Shown here piece after piece: positions 3,847 to 26,116 of a stretch of DNA of 34,178 bases. The stretch's first letter is position 1, and each line of letters starts with the position of its first letter. The translations under genes and the position numbers were made by a program. Origin of the DNA: a bacterium. Its GTDB lineage: Bacteria > Margulisbacteria > Marinamargulisbacteria > JABGVJ01. The notes beneath the pieces are model-generated. The model searched no databases and was not told where the DNA came from. It worked only from the letters and a program-made list of their open reading frames with translations. The stretch is from contig JABGVJ010000048.1 of assembly GCA_018646105.1 (NCBI GenBank), forward strand, positions 1 through 34,178, read 5' to 3'.

Positions 3847-5133
3847 ATGGTTTTTTTGAAAGTTATTGCGATACCTCAAAATGTGGTATTTGTGGAAAGA
3901 AGACCGTTGCCCAAATTCCCTGATCATTCTGCAGATATTATAGAATATTTACAATTTCTAAATCCTATTATGGATGCTGGTTTTGTAAGTAGAAGCTTAA
4001 ACCCTCAAAAACAACAAAATAAACTTCAATTCATTATTGCTTGCCTGAATACTTATAGATTGGTTGAAGATTTTCCTGATTTTTTTAGTGCAGAGTTGAT
4101 GGAAACTCTGGCTGAACAAGAAGGAATAAGTACTAAGCTAGTTACTTGGTTAAAATTTTGTGGTTGGATTAAAAATGAATATGATCTAACAGAGATTAAC
4201 TCTGTAGGCAGATTTCTCTTTTTTCAAGATGTAATTGAATATACTGAAAAAAGAAGCGTCATTAAACCGCTAATCGCACTGCATCCCAAAGGGGAACAAG
4301 ATCAAGAAGTAGGGAGGCCTTCCTTTGAAAGCGAGCGTAGTGTCAGTAGTTGTGGAAGAGAAGATGAAATTAGCATAACTACTGCTGCCCTGATGAGATT
4401 ACTGAAAAATTATTTACGGGCTAGAGATATAGATATTTCTGTAAATGACAATATACTTAGGCGGTTGTGGAATGGATCCATTGTTGGGCAATCCTTTACT
4501 TTAGAGCAACTTGAACAGACCGTATGTTTTTTCCCAATTGAATTAGGTTTTTTGGTTGATAAAGAGAATATTATTGTAAACTATGCTATTGGTACTAGTT
4601 TAAATCTGCAATTACAAGATTTACAAGGAGAATTATTAGATTGCACAGAGATGATTATTACCCATAATCATCCTAGAGGTACTACTTTTTCTTTAAGTGA
4701 TTTAGTGGCTTGTGCTGAAATGCCGATTGGAGAAATTAGAGTAGTTACAATACTAGCAGAAGACCCAGAAAATATATCATTTAAGCTATATAGAGCTAAA
4801 ATTTTATATCAAAAGGGTTTTGACATGAAGGCTTTACTAAATGCTTTTTATTTGTATTTTTATAATGGCTATCGCATGAGCGAAGTATTAGATGATGACG
4901 CTGTTTATAGTGATTCTGCCAAATATCTGGAAAATGCTGTTTCAACTTTAATGTTTTTAGGTTTTATCAGCTGTGAAGGCATATCTTATAGAGAATATAC
5001 TCCTTCACCCCCAGAAAAGTTGTTGGCTGAAATCAGAGAAGATAAGGATCGTTTAATAGCAGAAAAAAAAATTGTTGAAATCGAAATTTCAGAGGCTGTC
5101 ACGTATTTAGAACAAATAATGGCACTAAGCTAG
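3847..5133 (+). CDS. JAMM/RadC-like (MPN) domain protein, accessory
   Basis: 428 residues. A complete JAMM zinc-hydrolase motif lies at 273-285: His273-x-His275-Pro, Ser282 and Asp285 in THNHPRGTTFSLSDL, preceded at Glu232 (PIELGFLVDKE) by a candidate catalytic glutamate and by IGTSLNLQLQ, which resembles the GT strand of RadC. JAMM proteins are metal isopeptidases or deubiquitinases; RadC members have no settled activity. The N-terminal 200 residues look helical and match nothing I recognise; residues about 147-172 are polar and encoded by more GC-rich DNA, like an insertion. The last 40 residues (KLLAEIREDKDRLIAEKK) predict a coiled coil. A strong GGAGG (3836-3840) sets the ATG. It stands alone on its strand and overlaps the convergent ankyrin gene by 9 bases. 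Substrate and role unknown. Confidence 0.6.
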   Translation: MVFLKVIAIPQNVVFVERRPLPKFPDHSADIIEYLQFLNPIMDAGFVSRSLNPQKQQNKLQFIIACLNTYRLVEDFPDFFSAELMETLAEQEGISTKLVTWLKFCGWIKNEYDLTEINSVGRFLFFQDVIEYTEKRSVIKPLIALHPKGEQDQEVGRPSFESERSVSSCGREDEISITTAALMRLLKNYLRARDIDISVNDNILRRLWNGSIVGQSFTLEQLEQTVCFFPIELGFLVDKENIIVNYAIGTSLNLQLQDLQGELLDCTEMIITHNHPRGTTFSLSDLVACAEMPIGEIRVVTILAEDPENISFKLYRAKILYQKGFDMKALLNAFYLYFYNGYRMSEVLDDDAVYSDSAKYLENAVSTLMFLGFISCEGISYREYTPSPPEKLLAEIREDKDRLIAEKKIVEIEISEAVTYLEQIMALS

Positions 5134-15205: not shown

Positions 15206-16249
15206 TTGGAAGAAGATATACAAGTTTTAGGTGAAAACAATAGTGATATTATCACTTATTCCAAAAGTCTTCCAGTAGTCGTTTCGCGAGCCTGCAGAAA
15301 TAATTGTCCTTATTGCGGATTTCATAGAAAAGATAATTTGGTAGTTCCTTATTCCATTATAAAAACAGTTAAGGCTGCACGTATGAATGGTGTAAGAGAA
15401 ATTTATTTTTGCGCTGGTGAAAGACCGGATCGGTTTCCGGATGTGAGAGCGACTTTGGATCTATGGGGCTTTGATTCATATGTTGATTATTTATATACAA
15501 TGTGTGAATTAGCTTTTCTGGAAGGGCTGATTCCAGTATTAAATGTAGGATTTTTGAGTTTGCCAGAGATGAAGAAAATGTCAGAAATTGCTGCTTTAGC
15601 TAAAATTATGTTAGATGCGGTAGATCCTGCGTTGATGGCCAAAATTCATGCGGACTCTCCGGGTAAAAGTCTGGGGTTACGAGTTAAGAGTTTGGTATGG
15701 GCAGGTAAACTGAATTGGCCTGTGGTTACAGGCTTTGTAGTGGGTTTAGGGGAAACGAAAAAGTACAGAAAAGAAATGTTGCAATTAATTGCAAATTTAC
15801 ATAAGGAATATGGACATATTCATGAGGTTTCTTTACAGAATTTTTTTGCGTATCCGGGATTGAATTTTAAATATGGAAAAGTTCCTGCAAAAGAGGAAAT
15901 GTTAAAGACGGTAGACATGGCTTTAAATATTTTGCCAGAAGACATTAAAGTCACGGTGCCGGTGGAATTTAATCCTGAGATAGAGGATTTTGTTAAATTG
16001 GGGATTAAAGATTTGGGTCGTGTTTTTGAGGCTCCTAAGGTTCTTTTTCCTAAGGTTAATCCTGTTAATGTAAATGATTTAAAATTAAAAGTGACTGATT
16101 TAGGGTTTGATTTGCAACAGAGATTTCCTTTAGGTTTTGATTGGATTAAAAAAGGTAGTTATTCTAGAAAATTAGGACAAATTTTTGATGCTTTAAAATA
16201 TAAAATTAAAAAAGATGAACAGGAAAAAAGTAAAGGCGGTATCAGATGA
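15206..16249 (+). CDS. CofG-like radical SAM protein
   Basis: 347 residues. Near the N-terminus RACRNNCPYCGFH gives the CxxxCxxC cluster for the 4Fe-4S/SAM centre. The rest follows CofG, the FO (deazaflavin) synthase subunit, closely: FCAGERPDRFPDVRATL, YVDYLYTMCELAFLEGLIPVLNVGFLS, TGFVVGLGETKKYRKEML and the hallmark LHKEYGHIHEVSLQNF. Differences from true CofG exist, such as IMLDAVDPALM for the usual MLE segment and GKSLGLRV for the KxPxxR segment. No CofH or other F420 gene is near, so FO synthesis is uncertain and a related radical reaction is possible. TTG at 15206 has AAAGGAG 13 bases upstream. It ends in an ATGA overlap with the FliK-like gene, so it is the first gene of the export operon. 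Confidence 0.75.
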   Translation: MEEDIQVLGENNSDIITYSKSLPVVVSRACRNNCPYCGFHRKDNLVVPYSIIKTVKAARMNGVREIYFCAGERPDRFPDVRATLDLWGFDSYVDYLYTMCELAFLEGLIPVLNVGFLSLPEMKKMSEIAALAKIMLDAVDPALMAKIHADSPGKSLGLRVKSLVWAGKLNWPVVTGFVVGLGETKKYRKEMLQLIANLHKEYGHIHEVSLQNFFAYPGLNFKYGKVPAKEEMLKTVDMALNILPEDIKVTVPVEFNPEIEDFVKLGIKDLGRVFEAPKVLFPKVNPVNVNDLKLKVTDLGFDLQQRFPLGFDWIKKGSYSRKLGQIFDALKYKIKKDEQEKSKGGIR

Positions 16250-16968
16250 GCGTGGAATTAGCAGCTAATCAGACGCAAATACCAGATTATGTGGCAGTTT
16301 TTTTAGAAAGACTATCTTCGTCCCAGGGTGTCTCGTTTGAGGGTTTTATGAAACAAGCAAACGGAAATTTGAATGAAAAAAACTTTAAAAAAATTGACGC
16401 GGCTACTTTTAGAAGAATAGAGTATGAGGGTAAAGATGACGTAGCTCAGCGTAAACAAGAAACGCGAAATAGTGCTAAACAAAATAAAATCACAGACAGT
16501 AACCCTAAAGTAAAAGAAAATGTTAAAAAGGATGTTAATCTTTTGCAGCAGTTTATAGAAAGTTTTAGTCCGGAATTGATCACGGTTAATACTAATAATT
16601 TTAGTGTGGTATTAGGATTAATTAAGGATAAACTAATTGAATCTATTAAGGAATTGAAGACAGAATATAATAAATTTTATACTTTTCATTTGAAATCAGA
16701 TGAGGATTTGCCTTTGGATATAATTTTGAAAAAAGTAGATGGTAAAATTAAAATATTATTGTTGGCTAATGGTAAAATGAAAGAAGAATTATTGGCTAAT
16801 TTAGTAGATTTAGAAAATTATTTACGAAAAAAAGATATTGATTTGTTTTCAATAGATGTTTTAGAATTGGGAAGAGACGCTAGTTATGATAAAGATGCAC
16901 AAAGTGGGAACGAGCAAAGACAAGATAATTTGTATGAGGAATTGATACAAGAGGAAATGACTGAATAG
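16246..16968 (+). CDS. FliK-like hook-length control protein (probable)
   Basis: 240 residues. The N-terminal 100 residues are polar and look unstructured (Lys, Asn and Gln rich). The C-terminal domain, about 145-210, fits the FliK/Flg_hook pattern: FHLKSDEDLPLDIILKKVDG, then KIKILLLANGKMKEELLANL, LENYLRKKDIDLFSIDVLEL. That is the strand, 'act like amphipathic helix' and 'lower, later strand' order of the domain that contacts FlhB and switches export specificity. FliK is normally longer (400 or more), so the ruler part here would be very short. Placement before a FlgD-like gene mirrors fliK-flgD in many flagellar operons. The stop codon is part of the next gene's TAGGAGG ribosome site. Family call is by pattern only. 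Confidence 0.6.
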   Translation: MSVELAANQTQIPDYVAVFLERLSSSQGVSFEGFMKQANGNLNEKNFKKIDAATFRRIEYEGKDDVAQRKQETRNSAKQNKITDSNPKVKENVKKDVNLLQQFIESFSPELITVNTNNFSVVLGLIKDKLIESIKELKTEYNKFYTFHLKSDEDLPLDIILKKVDGKIKILLLANGKMKEELLANLVDLENYLRKKDIDLFSIDVLELGRDASYDKDAQSGNEQRQDNLYEELIQEEMTE

Positions 16969-16983
16969 GAGGTTGTTATTTAG

Positions 16984-17748
16984 ATGTCAACGTTTGCAGG
17001 TGTTAGTGATATGGGGTTTAATAATATGAGTATGGCCGGTAATACGACAGCTGCAACTGGTGGTGGCGCTAGTGCTTTTATTGGTCAAGATTTTAGCTAT
17101 GATTTTGAACGTGTTTTAGCTAAATATCGAGAGGCCGGAGTGTCTGAATTTGGTGGAACAGGAAAAGTTGCTAATACGACAGTTTCTAGTCAAACACCGG
17201 CCAATAAGCCTTTGTTTTCTATAAAAGAACTAATGGGTGGTTTTTTGGGTAAAGAAATAGAATATGTTAATAAAGAGACTGGTGTAAAGCAAAAAGGTCA
17301 GATTACGGGAATTAGATCTTTAGGAGAAGATAAATATGCTTTTTCGTTGCAAAATGGTGGCGAAATAAAAATGGTTTTTGTTTTAGCTGCGGGTAATGAA
17401 ACAGAGGTTAAAGATATAAAAAATAAGCAGAAAAGTAAAGAAGAATTAAAATATTATCAATTGCAAGCGCAGCAAATGCTTAATGGTATGTTAAAGCCTA
17501 ATATAGATGCTAGCCAAACTTCGTTTGGAGATATTACGGTAGCAAATAGTTTTCCAGAGTACTATGGGAGTAACGGAGTGCCGCAAGGCTCGTCAGCGGC
17601 AGAATCAGTCTCTATGAATGAGGAAGTTGTGTTTTTCAATAAGATACAAGGCGAGTGGCAAAACGGGAGAATTACTGAGAGGTTAAACGATAATGAATTT
17701 GGGTTGGATAATGGAAATGTGGTTAAAATTTTATTTCAGGAAGTATAA
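16984..17748 (+). CDS. FlgD-like protein lacking the usual FlgD N-terminal motif
   Basis: 254 residues. The first 35 are rich in Gly, Ala, Met and Asn, typical of a secreted export substrate. Residues about 83-130 (FLGKEIEYVNKETGVKQKGQ, then ITGIRSLGEDKYAFSLQNGG) resemble the small beta-barrel that follows the N-terminal part of FlgD, the hook-cap scaffold. A second similar unit ends the protein (about 209-254: NEEVVFFNKIQGEWQNGRIT, NEFGLDNGNVVKI). The FLxLLVxQLxNQDP segment of ordinary FlgD is absent, and between the two units is a Gln-rich stretch. Position after the FliK-like gene supports a hook-cap or early-substrate role. It could instead be a pair of Tudor/SH3-like modules with another job. 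Spacing to fliM is 3 bases. Confidence 0.5.
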   Translation: MSTFAGVSDMGFNNMSMAGNTTAATGGGASAFIGQDFSYDFERVLAKYREAGVSEFGGTGKVANTTVSSQTPANKPLFSIKELMGGFLGKEIEYVNKETGVKQKGQITGIRSLGEDKYAFSLQNGGEIKMVFVLAAGNETEVKDIKNKQKSKEELKYYQLQAQQMLNGMLKPNIDASQTSFGDITVANSFPEYYGSNGVPQGSSAAESVSMNEEVVFFNKIQGEWQNGRITERLNDNEFGLDNGNVVKILFQEV

Positions 17749-17751
17749 AAT

Positions 17752-19086
17752 ATGAATAGAAAAACTAAAAATTTTCAAAGGTTATTAAAGTTGCCGGCCG
17801 CTTTGGGTGATTGGACCAAACTTAATTTAGAAGATACTTGGTTAGAAGAAATGCAGGTGGCGGAGATAAATTATCCTTGTTTTGATGGTTTAGCAAAAGA
17901 TCAATTGAAAAAGGCGCATTTGTTGCATTATAGATTGGCAGAGAAAATAGCGCGAAAATTGTCTGATGATATAAATATGAAGGTGGAACTTTATTCGGTA
18001 GGTATTCAACAGACATCTTACGAAGAGTTTGTGAAAACTATGCAAGGAAAAGCAGCTGTGAAAATTGATTTTGCTGTAAATAATAATAAGACAACTACTT
18101 TTGTGGGGCAGGCTTTAGCCAGTGTTTTATTAGATAGATTATTAGGCGGTAAAGGTAAGGTTTCTGAAAATCATAGTTTTTCGGAAATAGATTTAGAAAT
18201 TTTGTCTGCGGAATTTCAGGGGATGTTACCATTATATTATGAGTTATGGGGAAGTCAGCTTTCTGAAAAAGAAGATAAGTTGAAATTGATTTTTGAAACT
18301 TATAAAGAAGATAAAAAAATAGGAAAACGAGATTCTTATATATTTTTCAGCATGGATTTTTTATTAGATAATGATCAGCCCCAAAAGATAATTTTAGGGT
18401 ATCATAATCAAATATTAAAAGTGTTATTGCAAAAAGAAGAAGTTTCGGAGCAAACAAAGGGTGATAAAAGAGAAGTGTTATTGAACCAAAAGACGCAAAA
18501 AAATATTAAAGTTCCGGTTAGCGTTAGATTGGGAAAAAGTCATATAACAATGAAAGATTTAAAGAATTTGCAGGTAGACGATATTATTACTTTTGACAAT
18601 AAAGTAAACGAGTCATTAGATGTTTTTGTGGGAGAATCTGTACGCTTAAAAGGACAGCCAGTATCCTTTCATAAAAGATGTGCTGTACAACTGTTGTTGG
18701 ATAACGTGGAAGCAAATAAGGCAGAGATCAAAGAGACTTTTTTACAGGCGCCTTTGGAAGAAGATACGTTAGAGGAATCAATAGAACCAACGTTGCCCGA
18801 ATTAGAAGAACCTTTAGAAAAGGAAGCTATTTTAGATAAAGAACTGTCTCAAGATGTGGAAGATCAGATGGAGTTAGAGGATATAGAAGCAGACGCGGAT
18901 CAAGATGCTGAAGATTTGGAAGAAGAGGCGGAACTTGATCAAGAAGAAGATGAGGAAGATGACTTAGAAGAAGAGGAAGCGCAAGAAGAAAAGATTGAAG
19001 ATATAAATAAACCTGAAAGTACAGAAAATAAAAAAGAAAAAACCAATTTGAATGAAGATGATTTTTCTTGGGATGATATAGAATAG
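17752..19086 (+). CDS. fliM: Flagellar motor switch protein FliM with long acidic tail
   Basis: 444 residues, about 110 longer than usual. The FliM middle domain spans about 45-225: LHYRLAEKIARKLSDD, VELYSVGIQQTSYEEF, the short LLGGKGK and SFSEIDLEILSAEF. A SpoA (C-ring) domain lies at about 252-318 (IKVPVSVRLGKSHITMKDLK). From about 330 to 420 the chain is a low-complexity acidic tail, about half Asp/Glu and nearly without basic residues. The N-terminal LSQxEIDxLL peptide that binds CheY-P in normal FliM is missing; the start is MNRKTKNFQRLLKLPAAL. FliM forms the cytoplasmic ring with FliN and FliG. The order fliM-fliN-fliOPQR-flhBA supports the call. Torque switching by CheY is doubtful here. 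Confidence 0.8.
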   Translation: MNRKTKNFQRLLKLPAALGDWTKLNLEDTWLEEMQVAEINYPCFDGLAKDQLKKAHLLHYRLAEKIARKLSDDINMKVELYSVGIQQTSYEEFVKTMQGKAAVKIDFAVNNNKTTTFVGQALASVLLDRLLGGKGKVSENHSFSEIDLEILSAEFQGMLPLYYELWGSQLSEKEDKLKLIFETYKEDKKIGKRDSYIFFSMDFLLDNDQPQKIILGYHNQILKVLLQKEEVSEQTKGDKREVLLNQKTQKNIKVPVSVRLGKSHITMKDLKNLQVDDIITFDNKVNESLDVFVGESVRLKGQPVSFHKRCAVQLLLDNVEANKAEIKETFLQAPLEEDTLEESIEPTLPELEEPLEKEAILDKELSQDVEDQMELEDIEADADQDAEDLEEEAELDQEEDEEDDLEEEEAQEEKIEDINKPESTENKKEKTNLNEDDFSWDDIE

Positions 19087-19153: not shown

Positions 19154-19726
19154 ATGGAAAATAAAGTTTTTGATGATCCTTTAAACGTGATTGATGATGT
19201 GATAGAGGATGCTTTTCGAAAAGATGAGCTTAAAGATGTGACAAAGAGTGCTAAACAAGCTCCATCTAAAACAGTAAAAAAGAAAAAAATTGTTAAAAAA
19301 ACGGCGGTAAAAAAAGAAGTTGCTAAATCTAAGCAAGCTGTAAAGCCAGATAGTTTAGCTGTACCTGAAATTGCGAAAAAGCAAGATAAGAAACCGTTTT
19401 TTTCAGAAGTAAATGAAAATTTAGATGCGGATATTTCTGAAGTTGAATTTCCTGTTTTAGCAGAAAAGCCAAAGGCGGTACAATTTGAAGATAATATTTT
19501 TAATAATATTCCTGTAAAGGTAACGGTGGAATTGGGAAAAGCCCAAATGGCTTTAAAGGATATTTATGATTTGGGAGAAGGTTCTATTATAGAACTAAAT
19601 TGTTTAGTAGGAGAACCTTTGGCATTAGTAGTGAATGGGCAGACTATTGCTCATGGAGAAGTTGTGGCAATTGATAATTATTTTGGGTTGCGTTTGACTA
19701 AAATAGAACCACGTTTAAATAAATGA
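19154..19726 (+). CDS. fliN: Flagellar C-ring protein FliN with lysine-rich N-terminal extension
   Basis: 190 residues. The C-terminal 75 residues are a clear FliN SpoA domain (VKVTVELGKAQMALKDIYDL, GEGSIIELNC, GEPLALVVNGQTIAHGEVV, then GLRLTKIEPRL). The first 110 residues are an extension not found in minimal FliN: about 31-64 is lysine-rich (14 Lys in 34) with KKKK and KK pairs, followed by an acidic stretch (84-113). FliN stacks under FliM in the C-ring and docks the FliH-ATPase complex. It follows fliM after 67 bases, with its own AAGGAG, and its TGA overlaps the fliO ATG. The charge of the extension is opposite to that of the FliM tail. Confidence 0.9.
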   Translation: MENKVFDDPLNVIDDVIEDAFRKDELKDVTKSAKQAPSKTVKKKKIVKKTAVKKEVAKSKQAVKPDSLAVPEIAKKQDKKPFFSEVNENLDADISEVEFPVLAEKPKAVQFEDNIFNNIPVKVTVELGKAQMALKDIYDLGEGSIIELNCLVGEPLALVVNGQTIAHGEVVAIDNYFGLRLTKIEPRLNK

Positions 19727-19962
19727 ATTTAGTCTATTATTTGCAGCTTTTAGTTGTTTTACTTTTAGTTTTTGGGGTTTTGCTATTTTTATGGAAAATA
19801 GCAGGTTTTATTCAGAAAAAAAAGTATAGTGGAGAGATAAAAGAAGTTGATAGACTAGCGATAGATAATGGAGTGACTCTTTTTATTATTGAGGTGCAAG
19901 GATGCAAATATTTTTTAAGCGTTGGCGGTAAAGAAGTACGCTTATTAGAAAAATTGCTTTAA
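19723..19962 (+). CDS. fliO: Flagellar biosynthesis protein FliO
   Basis: 79 residues. One membrane segment at about 4-27 (LQLLVVLLLVFGVLLFLWKI) is followed by a small cytoplasmic beta domain with the FliO pattern (IKEVDRLAIDNGVTLFIIEV, QGCKYFLSVGGKEVRLLEKL). FliO is the poorly conserved assembly factor that helps build the FliP ring. Identification rests on the plan and on exact position between fliN and fliP, with a 4-base overlap to fliN and 11 bases to fliP. Confidence 0.8.
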   Translation: MNLVYYLQLLVVLLLVFGVLLFLWKIAGFIQKKKYSGEIKEVDRLAIDNGVTLFIIEVQGCKYFLSVGGKEVRLLEKLL

Positions 19963-19973
19963 GATATATACTT

Positions 19974-20720
19974 ATGCGAAAATTTAACTTAATTTTTTTA
20001 ATTTTATTGTTTTTATTTTGTTTTTCGGGCAGCTTGTTCGCTCAACCTGCTGCGGATTTTGTTTTTGATTTTGAGTCGTTTACGAAACCGATAAATTTTA
20101 GCTCTTCAGTAGGGCTCTTGGTTGCGATTGCTTCTATTAGTCTGATACCCTTTCTTTTGATGTCTACTACGTCTTTTTTGCGGATAGTGATTGTCTTAAG
20201 TTTATTGAGACAGGCGGTAGGGTCGCAAACTACGCCACCTAACCCGGTAATTGTTTCATTGGCTTTGTTTTTAACGGTGTTTATTATGTCGCCTATCTGG
20301 ACAAAGATTAATATGGAGGCTGTTCAACCATATCAGGCTGGAGCTATTACGCAGGAAGCGGCTATTCAAAAAGGGATCCAACCTTTGCGTAATTTTATGC
20401 TGAAATTTACCAGGAAAAAAGATTTGGCTCTTTTTATTGAATTTGCGAAGTTGAAAAAATTTGAGAAAGCGGAAGATATTCCTATTTTTGTGGTGATTCC
20501 AGCTTTTGTTATTTCGGAATTAAAAACAGCGTTTCAAATTAGTTTTGTAATATTTATACCTTTTGTATGTATAGATTTTATTATTGGTAATATTTTGTTG
20601 GCTTTAGGTATGTTTATGCTTTCCCCTGTTGTAATTTCCTTGCCATTTAAACTATTGTTGTTTGTATTGGCGGATGGTTGGAATTTGATTATTCGCGGCT
20701 TGATTTTAAGTTTTCAATAA
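19974..20720 (+). CDS. fliP: Flagellar export gate protein FliP
   Basis: 248 residues. A cleavable signal peptide (FNLIFLILLFLFCFSGSLFAQ, cleavage near Ala23) precedes the FliP membrane protein: FLLMSTTSFLRIVIVLSLLRQAVGSQTTPPNPV, SLALFLTVFIMSPIW, then IFVVIPAFVISELKTAFQISFVIFIPFV and a final hydrophobic pair. FliP forms the five-fold core of the export gate with FliQ and FliR. The long loop before residue 160 contains the family's LRxFMLKxTRxKDLALF segment. Its usual direct neighbour fliQ is displaced by an exported protein gene of about 1 kb. Confidence 0.96.
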   Translation: MRKFNLIFLILLFLFCFSGSLFAQPAADFVFDFESFTKPINFSSSVGLLVAIASISLIPFLLMSTTSFLRIVIVLSLLRQAVGSQTTPPNPVIVSLALFLTVFIMSPIWTKINMEAVQPYQAGAITQEAAIQKGIQPLRNFMLKFTRKKDLALFIEFAKLKKFEKAEDIPIFVVIPAFVISELKTAFQISFVIFIPFVCIDFIIGNILLALGMFMLSPVVISLPFKLLLFVLADGWNLIIRGLILSFQ

Positions 20721-20777
20721 GTATAAAGTTTGAAGCCCCCCCCTTATTAATTTTTAGTAGAAGTAGAGGCAGATGAA

Positions 20778-21776
20778 ATGATTTGTTTTGATAGGAAGTT
20801 TTTTTACGGGTTGCTTTTTTTTGGCGTTTTTACAGTACTGGCGATTTCGGAAGAAAAAAAAACTTTTAGAGATTATTTTTTAAATGAAGAACTAATTGTT
20901 AGTAATTTTCCAGAGAAAATAGCAGAGCCAGGAATTATTTTCAAAAAAAAATTAGGCGAGAAACCTCTAAGAGTGGTTTATTATCATCAAAATAATTTTG
21001 ATAAAGATATTTATGTTAGTTTGCTAGTTAGTAATAAAGGAAAAAAGACCAGTAAGCTTAAATATGTTAAATCAAGCATTGAGGCGAGTTTTGATGAGGT
21101 GTATGTGGGGTATCGGGCGACTAAAGATTATTTTGCGGATTTACTTAATGGGCAGGAACAAACTTTGTTTTTAAAGTCTGGTCATAGTGAAAGCTTGGTA
21201 TTATCGAGGTTGAAGCCAGGGCAGATTTGCGGGGGAATAGTACGGTTAGACAAAGAAAAATATTCTGAATTGGATCTCAAAATGCAGGTTCTTGATGCGG
21301 AATATCCGTCTTTAATGGATGTTGATAAGGTGCATAATTATACATTTGCGTTTTTTCCAACGTCTTATAAAACTATAGATATTCAATATGATTTTAAAGG
21401 TATCAAAGAAATCACTATTGGGGGGTATCCCTTTTTTGAAGACACTTTAAATAAAATTATTTTAAAGGGAAATTATGGTGTTTTGTATAAAGTGGGTATT
21501 TTTTTAAATAATGAATCTAATGAATATAAAAATTTAAGTTTAGTATTTTCTCCTAGTAGTGGTATTATTAAGGGCGTAATGATTTTGAATAAGGGTATTT
21601 TAGAGACGGAATTTTTTCAGGGACAATATCATAACAATCTTGAAGAATTTTATAAGGAGATCATTGCTCCCGGAGAACAAAAAAAAATAGAATTTTATAT
21701 TATGCCACAGGCAGGCTCTTTTTATCCAATTAATATTGTTTTGAATAATAATAAAGAAATAAAATATAATTATTAA
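20778..21776 (+). CDS. Exported beta-rich protein of unknown function inserted between fliP and fliQ
   Basis: 332 residues, no function recognised. A signal peptide is clear (hydrophobic 8-22, FFYGLLFFGVFTVLA, cleavage near 24, no lipobox). The mature part is predicted almost entirely beta. Region about 55-175 (PLRVVYYHQNNFDKDIYVSL, DEVYVGYRATKDYF, SRLKPGQICGGIVRL) and region about 230-322 (KGNYGVLYKVGIFLNN, APGEQKKIEFYIMPQAG, SFYPINIVL) look like two immunoglobulin-like or chaperone-like sandwiches. I have a faint memory of similar exported proteins in Cyanobacteria and Firmicutes, but no annotated role. Its place inside the export-gate operon and its Sec signal suggest a periplasmic or surface component tied to this apparatus. 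AGAGG (about 20765) sets the ATG. A run of eight C lies in the short gap after fliP. Confidence 0.6.
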   Translation: MICFDRKFFYGLLFFGVFTVLAISEEKKTFRDYFLNEELIVSNFPEKIAEPGIIFKKKLGEKPLRVVYYHQNNFDKDIYVSLLVSNKGKKTSKLKYVKSSIEASFDEVYVGYRATKDYFADLLNGQEQTLFLKSGHSESLVLSRLKPGQICGGIVRLDKEKYSELDLKMQVLDAEYPSLMDVDKVHNYTFAFFPTSYKTIDIQYDFKGIKEITIGGYPFFEDTLNKIILKGNYGVLYKVGIFLNNESNEYKNLSLVFSPSSGIIKGVMILNKGILETEFFQGQYHNNLEEFYKEIIAPGEQKKIEFYIMPQAGSFYPINIVLNNNKEIKYNY

Positions 21777-21808: not shown

Positions 21809-22078
21809 ATGACGCTAGATAGTGTTTCAAGTATTATGACAAATGCTATTAATGTTATTTTACTTGCTTCGGCCCCATCTATTTTAATCGGAGTATTGGC
21901 GGGTTTGACGTTTGCTATATTTCAGGCAGTTACGCAGATTAATGAACAGACTTTGAGTTTTGTGCCTAAAATGGCAGTTATGTTTATAGTGTTGGCAATG
22001 ACATTCTCCTGGATGTCTAATTTGTTGATTAATTTGGCTTTGACTTTATGGAAAGATATACCTTTGTTTGCTAAATGA
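21809..22078 (+). CDS. fliQ: Flagellar export gate protein FliQ
   Basis: 89 residues forming a helical hairpin of two membrane segments (about 16-38 and 50-75). Family landmarks are LLASAPSILIGVLAGLTFAI, FQAVTQINEQTLSFVPKM and the final LW. FliQ subunits wrap the FliP-FliR core. AAAGGAGG lies directly before the ATG, and the TGA overlaps the ATG of fliR. Confidence 0.96.
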   Translation: MTLDSVSSIMTNAINVILLASAPSILIGVLAGLTFAIFQAVTQINEQTLSFVPKMAVMFIVLAMTFSWMSNLLINLALTLWKDIPLFAK

Positions 22079-22845
22079 TCATTACGTTTGAACAATTATA
22101 TACATTTTTTTTGATTTTTGCTCGGATTGCCGGTTTGGTATTATATGCGCCGGTTTTTTCTAGTAAAGAGATTATGCCTCTAGCTAAATTCGTGATTATT
22201 TTTTGGATGTCTGCAATTTTGATTTTTGTGGTTCCTTTACCCCAGGTTTTTCCGGATGCGGGTATTTCATATGCGTTAGCGTTGACAGCAGAGGTTTTGA
22301 TTGGCGCTATTATAGGTTTTTCTACGCAAATATTGATTTCGGGGATAGTTTTGGCCGGTAGTTTGATTGATACGCAGACAGCGATGGGTGTAGCTAGCGC
22401 ATTTGACCCTGCAGTAGGGGTGGCTACAACGCTTTTTTCTAAACTATTAAGATATATTATAATTATTATCTTTTTGATTTTTGATGGGCATCATATGTTG
22501 TTGTCAGCTATTTATCAGAGCTTTAAACTTTTGCCGTTGGCGAGTCCGGTGCATTTGGATAATGCGGCTTTGGTTCTGGTGCAGTTGGGAACAGATATAT
22601 TTAGGATAGGGGTATTATTGGCAGCCCCTTGTTTATTGGTTTTGTTTTTATTGGATTTCGCTTTTGGGATTGTGACTAGAGTAGCTCCGGATATTAATAT
22701 TTTTGCCTTAGCTATGCAATTTAAGCCTTTAGCTAATTTATTTGTTTTTTTGGCTATTTTGCCAATTATGGTTAGGAATTTATTTACTATTTTAGAGAGG
22801 GTTGCAGAGTATATTTTAAAGATATTTTTAGCTTTGCAAATGTAA
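22075..22845 (+). CDS. fliR: Flagellar export gate protein FliR
   Basis: 256 residues, strongly hydrophobic with about six membrane segments. Characteristic stretches are FFLIFARIAGLVLYAPVFSS, the GAIIGFSTQILISGIVLAGS segment, DTQTAMGVASAFDPA and DFAFGIVTRVAPDINIFALA. FliR closes the FliP5FliR1 gate and contacts FlhB. Translationally coupled to fliQ through a 4-base overlap; flhB follows after 6 bases. Confidence 0.95.
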   Translation: MIITFEQLYTFFLIFARIAGLVLYAPVFSSKEIMPLAKFVIIFWMSAILIFVVPLPQVFPDAGISYALALTAEVLIGAIIGFSTQILISGIVLAGSLIDTQTAMGVASAFDPAVGVATTLFSKLLRYIIIIIFLIFDGHHMLLSAIYQSFKLLPLASPVHLDNAALVLVQLGTDIFRIGVLLAAPCLLVLFLLDFAFGIVTRVAPDINIFALAMQFKPLANLFVFLAILPIMVRNLFTILERVAEYILKIFLALQM

Positions 22846-22851
22846 TGAATT

Positions 22852-23919
22852 ATGCCAGAAGATTCCAGTGGTAAAACTGAGCAGCCTACTCCTCATAAAT
22901 TAGGAGAGGCTAGAAAAAAAGGTCAAATTGCTAAGAGTAAAGAGCTGACTTCTGCTTTGCTTTTTATTACTTCTTTTGTCGTTTTGAATATTAGCTCGGT
23001 GTATATATGGGATTCTTTGGTTACTCTAATGCACTATTCTTTTGGACAGATTCCTTCGGAGTTTTCTTATGGTATTTCAGGGATATATTTAAATGCCGCT
23101 TTAAAAACAGCTTTTATGGTTTTGCTGCCTATGTTTATAACTAATTTTTTATTGGTGGTTATTTCAGAATCAATGCAAACACAGTTTTTATTTACTTTTA
23201 CTACTTTAACTCCGGATATAAATAGAATTAACCCTTTTGAGCAAGCTAAGAAATATTTTACACTGAAGCATTATATGACTGCTCTTAAATCGGTGCTGAA
23301 AATTGTAATTGTTTTTTCAATTGTTTTTTTTGCTTTAAAAGATAAATTTCCTTTGGTTTTGAAATCTCAGTATTTAAGTTTATGGCAATTGATACATTTA
23401 AGCGGATCTTTAGTAATGGATATTGTGATTAAAGTAGGTATTTTTTTTATATTTATTTCTGTTTTAGATTATTTTTATGAGCGTTATGAATTTGTGAAAT
23501 CTATGATGATGACTAAAAAAGAAATTAAAGAAGAATATAAAAGACTGGAAGGAGATCCTGAGATAAAAAAAAGGCAGCGTGAAAAGCAAAGAAAGATGGC
23601 GCAAAGCCGACAGATGGGAGCGGTGCCAGGCGCAGACGTAGTGGTAACTAATCCTGTTCATGTGGCGGTAGCGATACAGTATAAGCCGGAAATAGCTAAA
23701 GCGCCGATTATTTTAGCTAAAGGTAGAAAATTGTTGGCACAAGAGATAAAGAGGGTTGCTGATGAGAATTATGTGCCGATTATTGAAAATCAAATGTTAG
23801 CAAGGGCTTTGTATAAATATGGTGATGTTGGAGTGACGATTCCTCCGCAATTTTATAGGGCGGTAGCAGAAATTTTGGCTTTTGTTTATAATTTAAAGAA
23901 AAAAAGGAATTTGCGTTAA
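22852..23919 (+). CDS. flhB: Export switch protein FlhB with NPVH cleavage motif
   Basis: 355 residues. The standard start (KTEQPTPHKLGEARKKGQIAK) and four membrane segments (about 30-205) precede the cytoplasmic switch domain. The autocleavage loop reads Asn267-Pro268-Val269-His270 where nearly all FlhB have NPTH. Asn and Pro, which do the chemistry, are kept, so cleavage may still occur. The domain after it (VAVAIQYKPEIAKAPIILAK, GRKLLAQEIKRVADE, PIIENQMLARALY) is complete. FlhB changes export specificity from rod/hook to filament on a signal from FliK. No ribosome site is obvious, so coupling to fliR is likely. Confidence 0.95.
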   Translation: MPEDSSGKTEQPTPHKLGEARKKGQIAKSKELTSALLFITSFVVLNISSVYIWDSLVTLMHYSFGQIPSEFSYGISGIYLNAALKTAFMVLLPMFITNFLLVVISESMQTQFLFTFTTLTPDINRINPFEQAKKYFTLKHYMTALKSVLKIVIVFSIVFFALKDKFPLVLKSQYLSLWQLIHLSGSLVMDIVIKVGIFFIFISVLDYFYERYEFVKSMMMTKKEIKEEYKRLEGDPEIKKRQREKQRKMAQSRQMGAVPGADVVVTNPVHVAVAIQYKPEIAKAPIILAKGRKLLAQEIKRVADENYVPIIENQMLARALYKYGDVGVTIPPQFYRAVAEILAFVYNLKKKRNLR

Positions 23920-24031: not shown

Positions 24032-26116
24032 ATGTTTAATTTGAAAACATTGAAAGAATTATTTTCATTGTCAGATGTTTTAATAGCTCTCGTAGTTATT
24101 TTGGTAGTAGCTTTAATGGTACTTCCTATACCAACGGTAGTTTTAGATATGTTGCTGACTTTGAATATTTCTTTGGCTATTATGACATTGTTGGTGGCGA
24201 TGTATGTTAAGCAGGCGTTAGATTTTGCCACTTTTCCTTCTATTTTGTTGGTTTTAACTTTATTTCGTTTGTCTCTTAATGTAGCCTCTACTAAATTGAT
24301 TTTGGGTTTGGGCCCGGAGTTTGACGGTAAGGTGATATTGGCTTTTGCGGATTTTGTAACGAGCGGTAATTTTGTAGTGGGTGCGGTAGCATTTTTTATT
24401 ATTACCTTGGTGCAATTTATTGTGGTTGTAAAAGGTTCAGAAAGAGTAGCGGAAGTTGCGGCTAGATTTACTTTGGATGCTTTGCCTGGTAAACAGATGA
24501 GTATTGATGCTGATTTGAATTCTGGGTTAATAGACGCACAAGAGGCACGTACTAGAAGAAAAAAACTAGAAAGAGAATCTACCTTTTATGGGGCTATGGA
24601 TGGTGCTAATAAGTTTGTAAAAGGTGACGCGATAGCCGGTATTATAATTTTGGTAGTTAATATTGTGGGCGGCTTAATTATTGGTAGATTTCAGCAAGGA
24701 TTAAATTTAGGGGATGCGGTTCACACTTATGCGAGACTAACGATAGGTGATGGTTTGGTGGCACAGATTCCAGCATTGTTGATCGCTATTGCAACTGGTT
24801 TGATTGTGACAAAATCTGCTTCGGATGAAAGTTTAGGGTCAGATATAGCTAAACAAATTTTTGAGCAGCCTAAAGTTTTTGCGGCAACTTCTTTTATTTT
24901 ATTTTTGTTTGGTTTAGTGCCTGGTTTGCCAACTTTTTCTTTCATGACTATGTCTGCGTTATCGGCGGTTTTGACCATGGTTATTTTGAAAACTAAAAGA
25001 TTGAAGGAGGCAGCGGCCTCAGAAACGACTCAGGATACGGCGAAAGAAGCTATGAAGAAACCAGAAAATCTTTTAGGTACCTTAACTTTGGATCCTATTA
25101 GTTTAAAAGCAGGTAGAAATTTGGTGCCTTTGATTGACCCCTCTCAAAATGGTCCGTTATTAGAAAGATTGACTTTGGTGAGATACCATATTGGCCAAGA
25201 ATTGGGGTTTGTTATTCCGGGAGTGCGGATTATGGATGATTTGAGTATACAGCCCAATCAATACGAAATTGATATTAGGGGTACCAAAGTGGCGTTGGGG
25301 GAAGCGTTGCCAGGACATTTTTATGTAGAAAGGTCTGTGTCAGAGCTTAAAAGAAAAGGAGCTTCGGCGGTGGACGCAATAGATGTAGCTAATGGCATGC
25401 CAGCAGCCTGGGTGTCTGAAGACCAGATAGAAAAACTGCAAGAAGCAGGAATCGCTGTTCAAAATGTGACGGATTATATTGCTACTCATTTTGCGGAAGT
25501 TATCAAGCAGCACGCAGACGAGATAATGACTAGACAGAATGTGCAGTCTTTATTGGAGCTGGTAAAAAATACGAATGCGGCTATTGTGCGAGAGTTGGTG
25601 CCGGATATGTTGTCTTTGGGACAAGTACATAAGGTGTTACAGGTTTTGGTCAAAGAAAGAGTTTCTATTAGAGATCTTTCGACTATCTTGGAGAGGCTGG
25701 CTGACTATGCGCATGTTTCTAGAGATACAAATCTTTTAGCCGAATATGTGCGACAGTCTTTAGCAAGACAGATATGTTCACAGTATGTAGATAAAAGTGA
25801 AACGATTACTGTGGTAACTATTGATCCTAAATTGGAAGAAACTTTGATAAATTCTGTGCATCAATCTGAATACGGTTCGTTTTTAGCTTTGGAACCGCAT
25901 ATGGGAGAAAAGATTTTAGGACAGATAGAAGAGTTAATAAATAATTTCTTTAAAATGAATAAGACTGCTGTTATTTTGTGTTCTCCACGATTGAGACCTC
26001 ATTTTAAAAAGTTTGTAGAGAGGACTTATCCTAAATTAATAGTTCTTTCTTATAATGAAATAGTGCCTCAGGCTAAAGTTCAGTCTATAGGGATTATTAA
26101 TGTAGAGGAATTTTGA
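24032..26116 (+). CDS. flhA: Flagellar export gate protein FlhA
   Basis: 694 residues, normal length. Eight membrane segments in the N-terminal half contain the FHIPEP signature region (ARFTLDALPGKQMSIDADL, then LIDAQEARTRRKKLERE) that carries the proton path. The C-terminal half is the cytoplasmic ring that docks chaperones and substrates, ending in PQAKVQSIGIINVEEF. AAAGGAAG is upstream of the ATG. A 112-base gap separates it from flhB, very AT-rich (TATATT repeats) and perhaps holding a secondary promoter. The usual downstream flhF-flhG pair is replaced by a small unknown gene that starts inside its stop codon. Confidence 0.97.
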   Translation: MFNLKTLKELFSLSDVLIALVVILVVALMVLPIPTVVLDMLLTLNISLAIMTLLVAMYVKQALDFATFPSILLVLTLFRLSLNVASTKLILGLGPEFDGKVILAFADFVTSGNFVVGAVAFFIITLVQFIVVVKGSERVAEVAARFTLDALPGKQMSIDADLNSGLIDAQEARTRRKKLERESTFYGAMDGANKFVKGDAIAGIIILVVNIVGGLIIGRFQQGLNLGDAVHTYARLTIGDGLVAQIPALLIAIATGLIVTKSASDESLGSDIAKQIFEQPKVFAATSFILFLFGLVPGLPTFSFMTMSALSAVLTMVILKTKRLKEAAASETTQDTAKEAMKKPENLLGTLTLDPISLKAGRNLVPLIDPSQNGPLLERLTLVRYHIGQELGFVIPGVRIMDDLSIQPNQYEIDIRGTKVALGEALPGHFYVERSVSELKRKGASAVDAIDVANGMPAAWVSEDQIEKLQEAGIAVQNVTDYIATHFAEVIKQHADEIMTRQNVQSLLELVKNTNAAIVRELVPDMLSLGQVHKVLQVLVKERVSIRDLSTILERLADYAHVSRDTNLLAEYVRQSLARQICSQYVDKSETITVVTIDPKLEETLINSVHQSEYGSFLALEPHMGEKILGQIEELINNFFKMNKTAVILCSPRLRPHFKKFVERTYPKLIVLSYNEIVPQAKVQSIGIINVEEF

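Follow-up and report, generated by a model that had tools for sequence, protein, structure and literature searches.

Background

FliP, FliQ and FliR assemble into a single membrane complex; the order of their genes is seldom interrupted. The usual small accessory beside fliP is FliO. Other accessory proteins of the basal body, FlgT, FlgO, FlgP and FlgQ, are exported and restricted to some flagellar lineages. In the one paper found to contain it, the phrase "between fliP and fliQ" concerns the assembly of FlhB onto the gate and not an inserted gene.

We analyzed a gene located between fliP and fliQ in a 34,178-nucleotide (nt) stretch of DNA (the window) from Candidatus Margulisiibacteriota. The product of this open reading frame (ORF), positions 20778 to 21776, was named X. 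Like FliO, X is encoded by an accessory gene adjoining fliP in the gate operon, but it is an export-type, predicted beta-sandwich protein, and the FliO-like gene is separate here. With FlgT, FlgO, FlgP and FlgQ it shares predicted export and restriction to a lineage; its gene context differs, and no Pfam or NCBIfam sequence match to families of this type was obtained. Our data suggest that X is a lineage-specific flagellar helper part whose origin lies in a broader group of cell-envelope proteins. Tightly coupled and kept in the fliP-fliQ gap across families of one phylum, it can be put to the test as a putative partner of the gate in the periplasm.

X is encoded in an intact export-gate operon

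The gene order in the window is fliM, fliN, fliO, fliP, X, fliQ, fliR, flhB, flhA. The features around and within X are as follows:

19154 to 19726, plus strand: fliN (PF01052, E 6e-21)
19723 to 19962, plus strand: fliO-like gene, 79 amino acids (aa) (PF04347, E 5e-4, slightly below the curated cut-off; position conserved in relatives)
19974 to 20720, plus strand: fliP (PF00813, E 5.8e-75; TIGR01103 over the cut-off)
20778 to 21776, plus strand: X, predicted exported two-beta-sandwich protein, 332 aa (ATG-start ORF; homologues in 18 genomes)
20778 to 20849, plus strand: N-terminal hydrophobic signal-type segment of X, residues ~1-24 (sequence; modelled helix)
20874 to 21323, plus strand: predicted beta-sandwich domain 1 of X, residues 33-182, with SNxPE, HxN and GH-type motifs (AlphaFold2 domain model; family alignments)
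21330 to 21755, plus strand: predicted beta-sandwich domain 2 of X, residues 185-326, with GNYG and PxxGSxYP motifs (AlphaFold2 model; invariant columns)
21809 to 22078, plus strand: fliQ (PF01313, E 5.1e-23)
22075 to 22845, plus strand: fliR (PF01311, E 8.3e-54)
22852 to 23919, plus strand: flhB (PF01312, E 1.4e-113)
24032 to 26116, plus strand: flhA (PF00771, E 2e-249)

The preliminary description of this DNA had placed a 332-aa ORF with a ribosome site between fliP and fliQ. Its coordinates and plus-strand orientation proved exact, both neighbours are intact and confidently matched by Pfam, and a GAGG-like sequence precedes the gene as a ribosome-site candidate (for fliQ, the candidate is AAAGGAGG). 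The spacing is 57 nt between fliP and X and 32 nt between X and fliQ. Since homologues are present in 18 genomes, nearly all in the same slot, and dN/dS is ~0.13-0.31 (see below), X is a real gene and not a chance ORF. We also considered X as a stand-in for FliO. This was rejected, because a FliO-like gene is present in the same operon; X itself has no FliO match.

Several other features of the window were recorded. The fliP-X gap harbors a run of eight C residues (20736-20743), a candidate slippage site and the sole G or C run of at least seven in this AT-rich window. The FliM-like protein encoded at 17752-19086 ends in an extended C-terminal tail that is acidic and of low complexity. No confident Pfam family was found for the two ORFs (16246-16968 and 16984-17748) that separate a radical-SAM gene from fliM, and ORF 3847-5133 (428 aa) is without a Pfam match at E ≤0.01.

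X has a signal-type N-terminus and two predicted beta-sandwiches

The N-terminus of X, MICFDRKFFYGLLFFGVFTVLAIS, reads as a hydrophobic helix of signal type, and complete X homologues also have hydrophobic N-termini. As read, these N-termini suggest that X is a Sec-exported protein, in line with the Sec-type signal proposed earlier. The two beta-sandwich halves proposed at the same time are both seen as units in the AlphaFold2 model of full X, which was calculated with 14 homologues (pLDDT 85, pTM 0.83) and comprises a helix (residues 6-22, low pLDDT) followed by the two sandwiches at residues ~38-173 and ~189-323. Domain 1 modelled alone with 27 sequences reached a pLDDT of 94.4 and a pTM of 0.87. 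In domain 2, the columns G231, N232, Y233 and G234, as well as P310, G313, Y316 and P317, are invariant.

No Pfam or NCBIfam family claims X above its cut-off. Matches to Pox_polyA_pol_N, MuF_C and SDE5640 were far under the cut-offs and absent from most relatives, and were dismissed as chance; PDB sequence profiles gave no match. With the full model, Foldseek returned E values down to 9e-7 with TM ≤0.27 and query TM ≤0.23 among the matches listed, and with domain 1 alone no E below 4e-3 and a query TM ≤0.41 among the matches listed. At such low TM, we considered these matches generic beta-sandwich or jelly-roll likeness and did not assign a solved-structure relative. A confident match to an unrelated enzyme had been named beforehand as an outcome that would refute a role in the export machine; searches by family, sequence and fold yielded no such match.

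X is found exclusively next to flagellar export genes in Margulisiibacteriota

To describe the distribution of X, 74 genomes of Candidatus Margulisiibacteriota were searched at the protein level, blind to gene location. A first protein search of 56 genomes (the window's own and relatives) detected X in 14, and a profile search detected it in 18 of the 74. In 17 of these 18 genomes, X is flanked by both fliP and fliQ. In the remaining one (L011), the contig end falls inside X and fliQ is next, so that X adjoins fliQ in all 18. The gene-neighbourhood survey proposed in the preliminary description thus places X beside flagellar export genes, always inside the flagellar operon, in all X-bearing genomes of the phylum. 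In genomes without X between fliP and fliQ, the profile detected no X elsewhere.

The other X copies are 16-32% identical to that of the window, in which the gaps around X are the widest found. Six loci have a 4-nt overlap of fliP and X (L002, L003, L004, L007, L008 and L010), and four have a 4-nt overlap of X and fliQ (L003, L005, L008 and L009). The tiny gaps and overlaps argue for operon-type coupling of fliP, X and fliQ. Judging from the overlaps, X is probably translated together with FliP and FliQ.

FliP was found in 61 of the 74 genomes. In the 40 X-less FliP loci that were retrieved, the fliP-fliQ gap measures 0-184 bp, with the exception of one locus ending before fliQ. No trace of a decayed X was detected in the 184-bp gap of G007. 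Many genomes are incomplete and some absences of X may be gaps; the absences counted as losses have an intact, tight fliP-fliQ junction, except at L068, where the contig ends after fliP.

Eight genomes (families f19, f21 and f23) contain two FliP copies, and X lies beside one copy only; the fliP-fliQ gap of the second copy is 27-106 bp. These genomes likely have two flagellar-type systems. The second sets without X (L084-L091, in G028, G031, G034, G037, G040, G043, G046 and G049) consist of long-branch FliP, FliQ, FliR and FlhB, with no fliM match within the retrieved stretch. Two FlgI matches were found in seven of the eight genomes. A link between X and the P-ring or L-ring was also considered, but FlgI and FlgH are present in nearly all genomes with or without X, and their distribution was uninformative.

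X is largely co-inherited with FliPQR and evolves fast

In a FliPQR tree, all X-bearing systems group within a single clade (support 0.91), whose 33 loci comprise 18 with X and 15 X-less FliP loci. X is therefore not present wherever the flagellar system of this lineage is. The 18 occurrences represent one clade and not independent insertions, and the case for a flagellar function rests on retention and coupling. By parsimony, a single gain of X requires ~8 losses; the Fitch count of seven changes does not alone force a single gain. Loss of X in flagellate relatives, about eight times, marks it as an accessory or optional helper rather than a core or essential component.

The X tree and the FliPQR tree have 7 of 15 splits in common (1000 shuffles: mean 0.17, maximum 3), with one well-supported conflict, the placement of L008, L010 and L011. 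X is largely co-inherited with FliPQR. For the three less diverged close pairs, dN/dS of X was ~0.13 (0.158/1.233), 0.31 (0.21/0.686) and 0.19 (0.327/1.762), rough values because the synonymous values are close to saturation. For fliPQR it was lower, ~0.01-0.1. X is under purifying selection but fast-evolving, with dN/dS above that of FliP, FliQ and FliR, as in exposed proteins.

The X domain belongs to a wider family of envelope proteins

A scan of a genome collection revealed one further locus, L111, in another phylum. There, the X-type domain forms the C-terminal half of a 596-aa, predicted exported protein (L111:4113-5903), which is encoded between genes that we take from their sequences to be lpxD and lpxC-fabZ. 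The profile of the fliP-fliQ proteins matches it with E 2.3e-56. In this second phylum (that of G074), the domain is present in 147 of 149 genomes, mostly in proteins of ~550-650 aa; these genomes include some in which FlhA was not matched. Homologues of lpxD and/or lpxC-fabZ of L111 adjoin 13 of the 20 loci examined. In another subgroup, the gene is located in a conserved block by presumably RecQ-like and DnaX-like genes, as read from their sequences. Deinococcus plasmids carry the domain as well (profile E 1.5e-18 to 7.4e-16).

Like X, the second-phylum proteins have a two-sandwich domain of ~300 aa with SNxPE, HxN, GH, GNYG and GSxYP motifs; unlike X, they have ~300 extra N-terminal residues and no fliP/fliQ context. 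When the shared motifs (SNxPE, HxN, GH/GQ, GNYG and PxxGSxYP within ~300 aa) were used as a test, X was placed in this two-sandwich exported family, which is not described in Pfam or NCBIfam; the L111 protein has no Pfam family above the cut-off. The X of L006, whose genome contains two sets of FliP, has ~70 residues matching the domain that lies ahead of the X region in envelope proteins. Among 57 sequences this match had an E of 4.8e-6, against 0.96 for the best of 50 shuffles. The retained extra domain suggests that flagellar X is probably a shortened descendant of the long envelope form that has shed its N-terminal domains.

The closest Pfam entry is more distant. X scored 15.3 bits against PF11850 (DUF3370), under the gathering cut-off of 25, and a PF11850 search of four whole genomes gave nothing above the cut-off. 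Weak matches were obtained for 21 of 40 members of the wider family (E up to 1, best E 7.9e-7). The GNYG region of X corresponds to profile positions 304-332 and the SNxPE region of L111 to positions 15-33, with conserved order. DUF3370 was compared through its profile, and among control genomes only Synechococcus elongatus matched. Judged from these comparisons, DUF3370 is a remote relative of the X family, and X is not a member of it. Our search found no literature on DUF3370.

These data qualify two earlier statements. The suggestion that X is specific to its lineage holds, as far as seen, for the fliP-fliQ placement, but the domain itself occurs in unrelated envelope contexts of other phyla. 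Homologues scattered without export genes, which would have spoken against a role in the apparatus, are absent from the 74 Margulisiibacteriota genomes, where all are linked, whereas in other phyla most are unlinked.

A link between X and FlhA in the second phylum was considered and dropped, as X copies are generally not near flhA among the matches listed. In two genomes of this phylum, an orphan FlhA C-domain-like gene (L145:7913-9289, 458 aa; L153:4383-6083, 566 aa) lies next to an X-family gene.

Possible roles of X

We favor the view, with a probability of roughly 55%, that X is a Sec-exported flagellar accessory coupled to FliP and FliQ, a putative periplasmic assembly or anchoring factor that was probably recruited from an envelope family. 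Translational coupling would tie the synthesis of X to that of FliP and FliQ, and X would then be exported by Sec and released into the periplasm. Its two binding-type beta-sandwiches could serve in assembly or anchoring of the basal body, and X may contact the periplasmic face of the FliPQR, rod or P-ring region or tie that region to the envelope. Its ancestors would be exported envelope proteins of a family whose genes are often part of lipid A clusters, and a single flagellar lineage would have captured the domain. With such an ancestry, a function in linking to the envelope is likelier than one within the export channel. The export-type N-terminus, the sandwiches, the operon position, co-inheritance, selection and the wider family were computed; from there, we infer the periplasmic location, the basal-body contact and the exact step of X. 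The earlier proposal of a periplasmic or surface part of the export machine is retained in that X is of exported type and linked to flagellar genes; X now appears as an accessory, and its physical membership in the machine is putative. A narrower version, in which this envelope-family recruit is a periplasmic part of the export gate or basal body and forms a physical link between the envelope and the assembly of gate or rod, is offered tentatively, as possible rather than probable.

X could instead belong to outer-membrane, lipopolysaccharide or cell-wall biology and reside in the operon only for expression at the time when flagella pierce the envelope. The lpxD and lpxC-fabZ neighbours of its relatives, the near-universal presence of the domain in the second phylum, including genomes without an FlhA match, and the envelope-form N-terminal domain of L006 are in keeping with this reading. 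We nevertheless regard it as unlikely, given that no Margulisiibacteriota copy was found outside the fliP-fliQ slot and that loss from the slot is total loss. Several points weigh against the favored view: with ~8 losses among flagellate relatives, flagella can generally do without X; most family members of other phyla have no link to flagellar genes; the X and FliPQR trees disagree at one well-supported place; and a single vertically inherited clade could retain a passenger through operon inertia. An envelope gene inserted once and held in this way, with no flagellar function, would be lost repeatedly and evolve fast, as X does. Purifying selection, the 4-nt overlaps at both ends of X in distant members and the lack of X elsewhere in the 18 genomes, despite the low identity of the copies to that of the window, make such a passenger improbable. 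Fast evolution would also suit secretion of X to the cell surface, as an outer or filament-associated component peculiar to this lineage and perhaps resembling an adhesin module, and the fold has a generic likeness to carbohydrate- and collagen-binding modules, with scores for domain 1 that are not significant. The hydrophobic Sec-type N-terminus is, however, unlike that of a type III substrate, and neither repeats nor a surface anchor were seen among X homologues, so that we consider a surface part very improbable.

The fliP-fliQ context points an uncharacterized envelope domain, near-universal in a second phylum and remotely related to DUF3370, towards a process. The ~600-aa exported proteins of the L111 type are possibly lipid A or outer-membrane factors.
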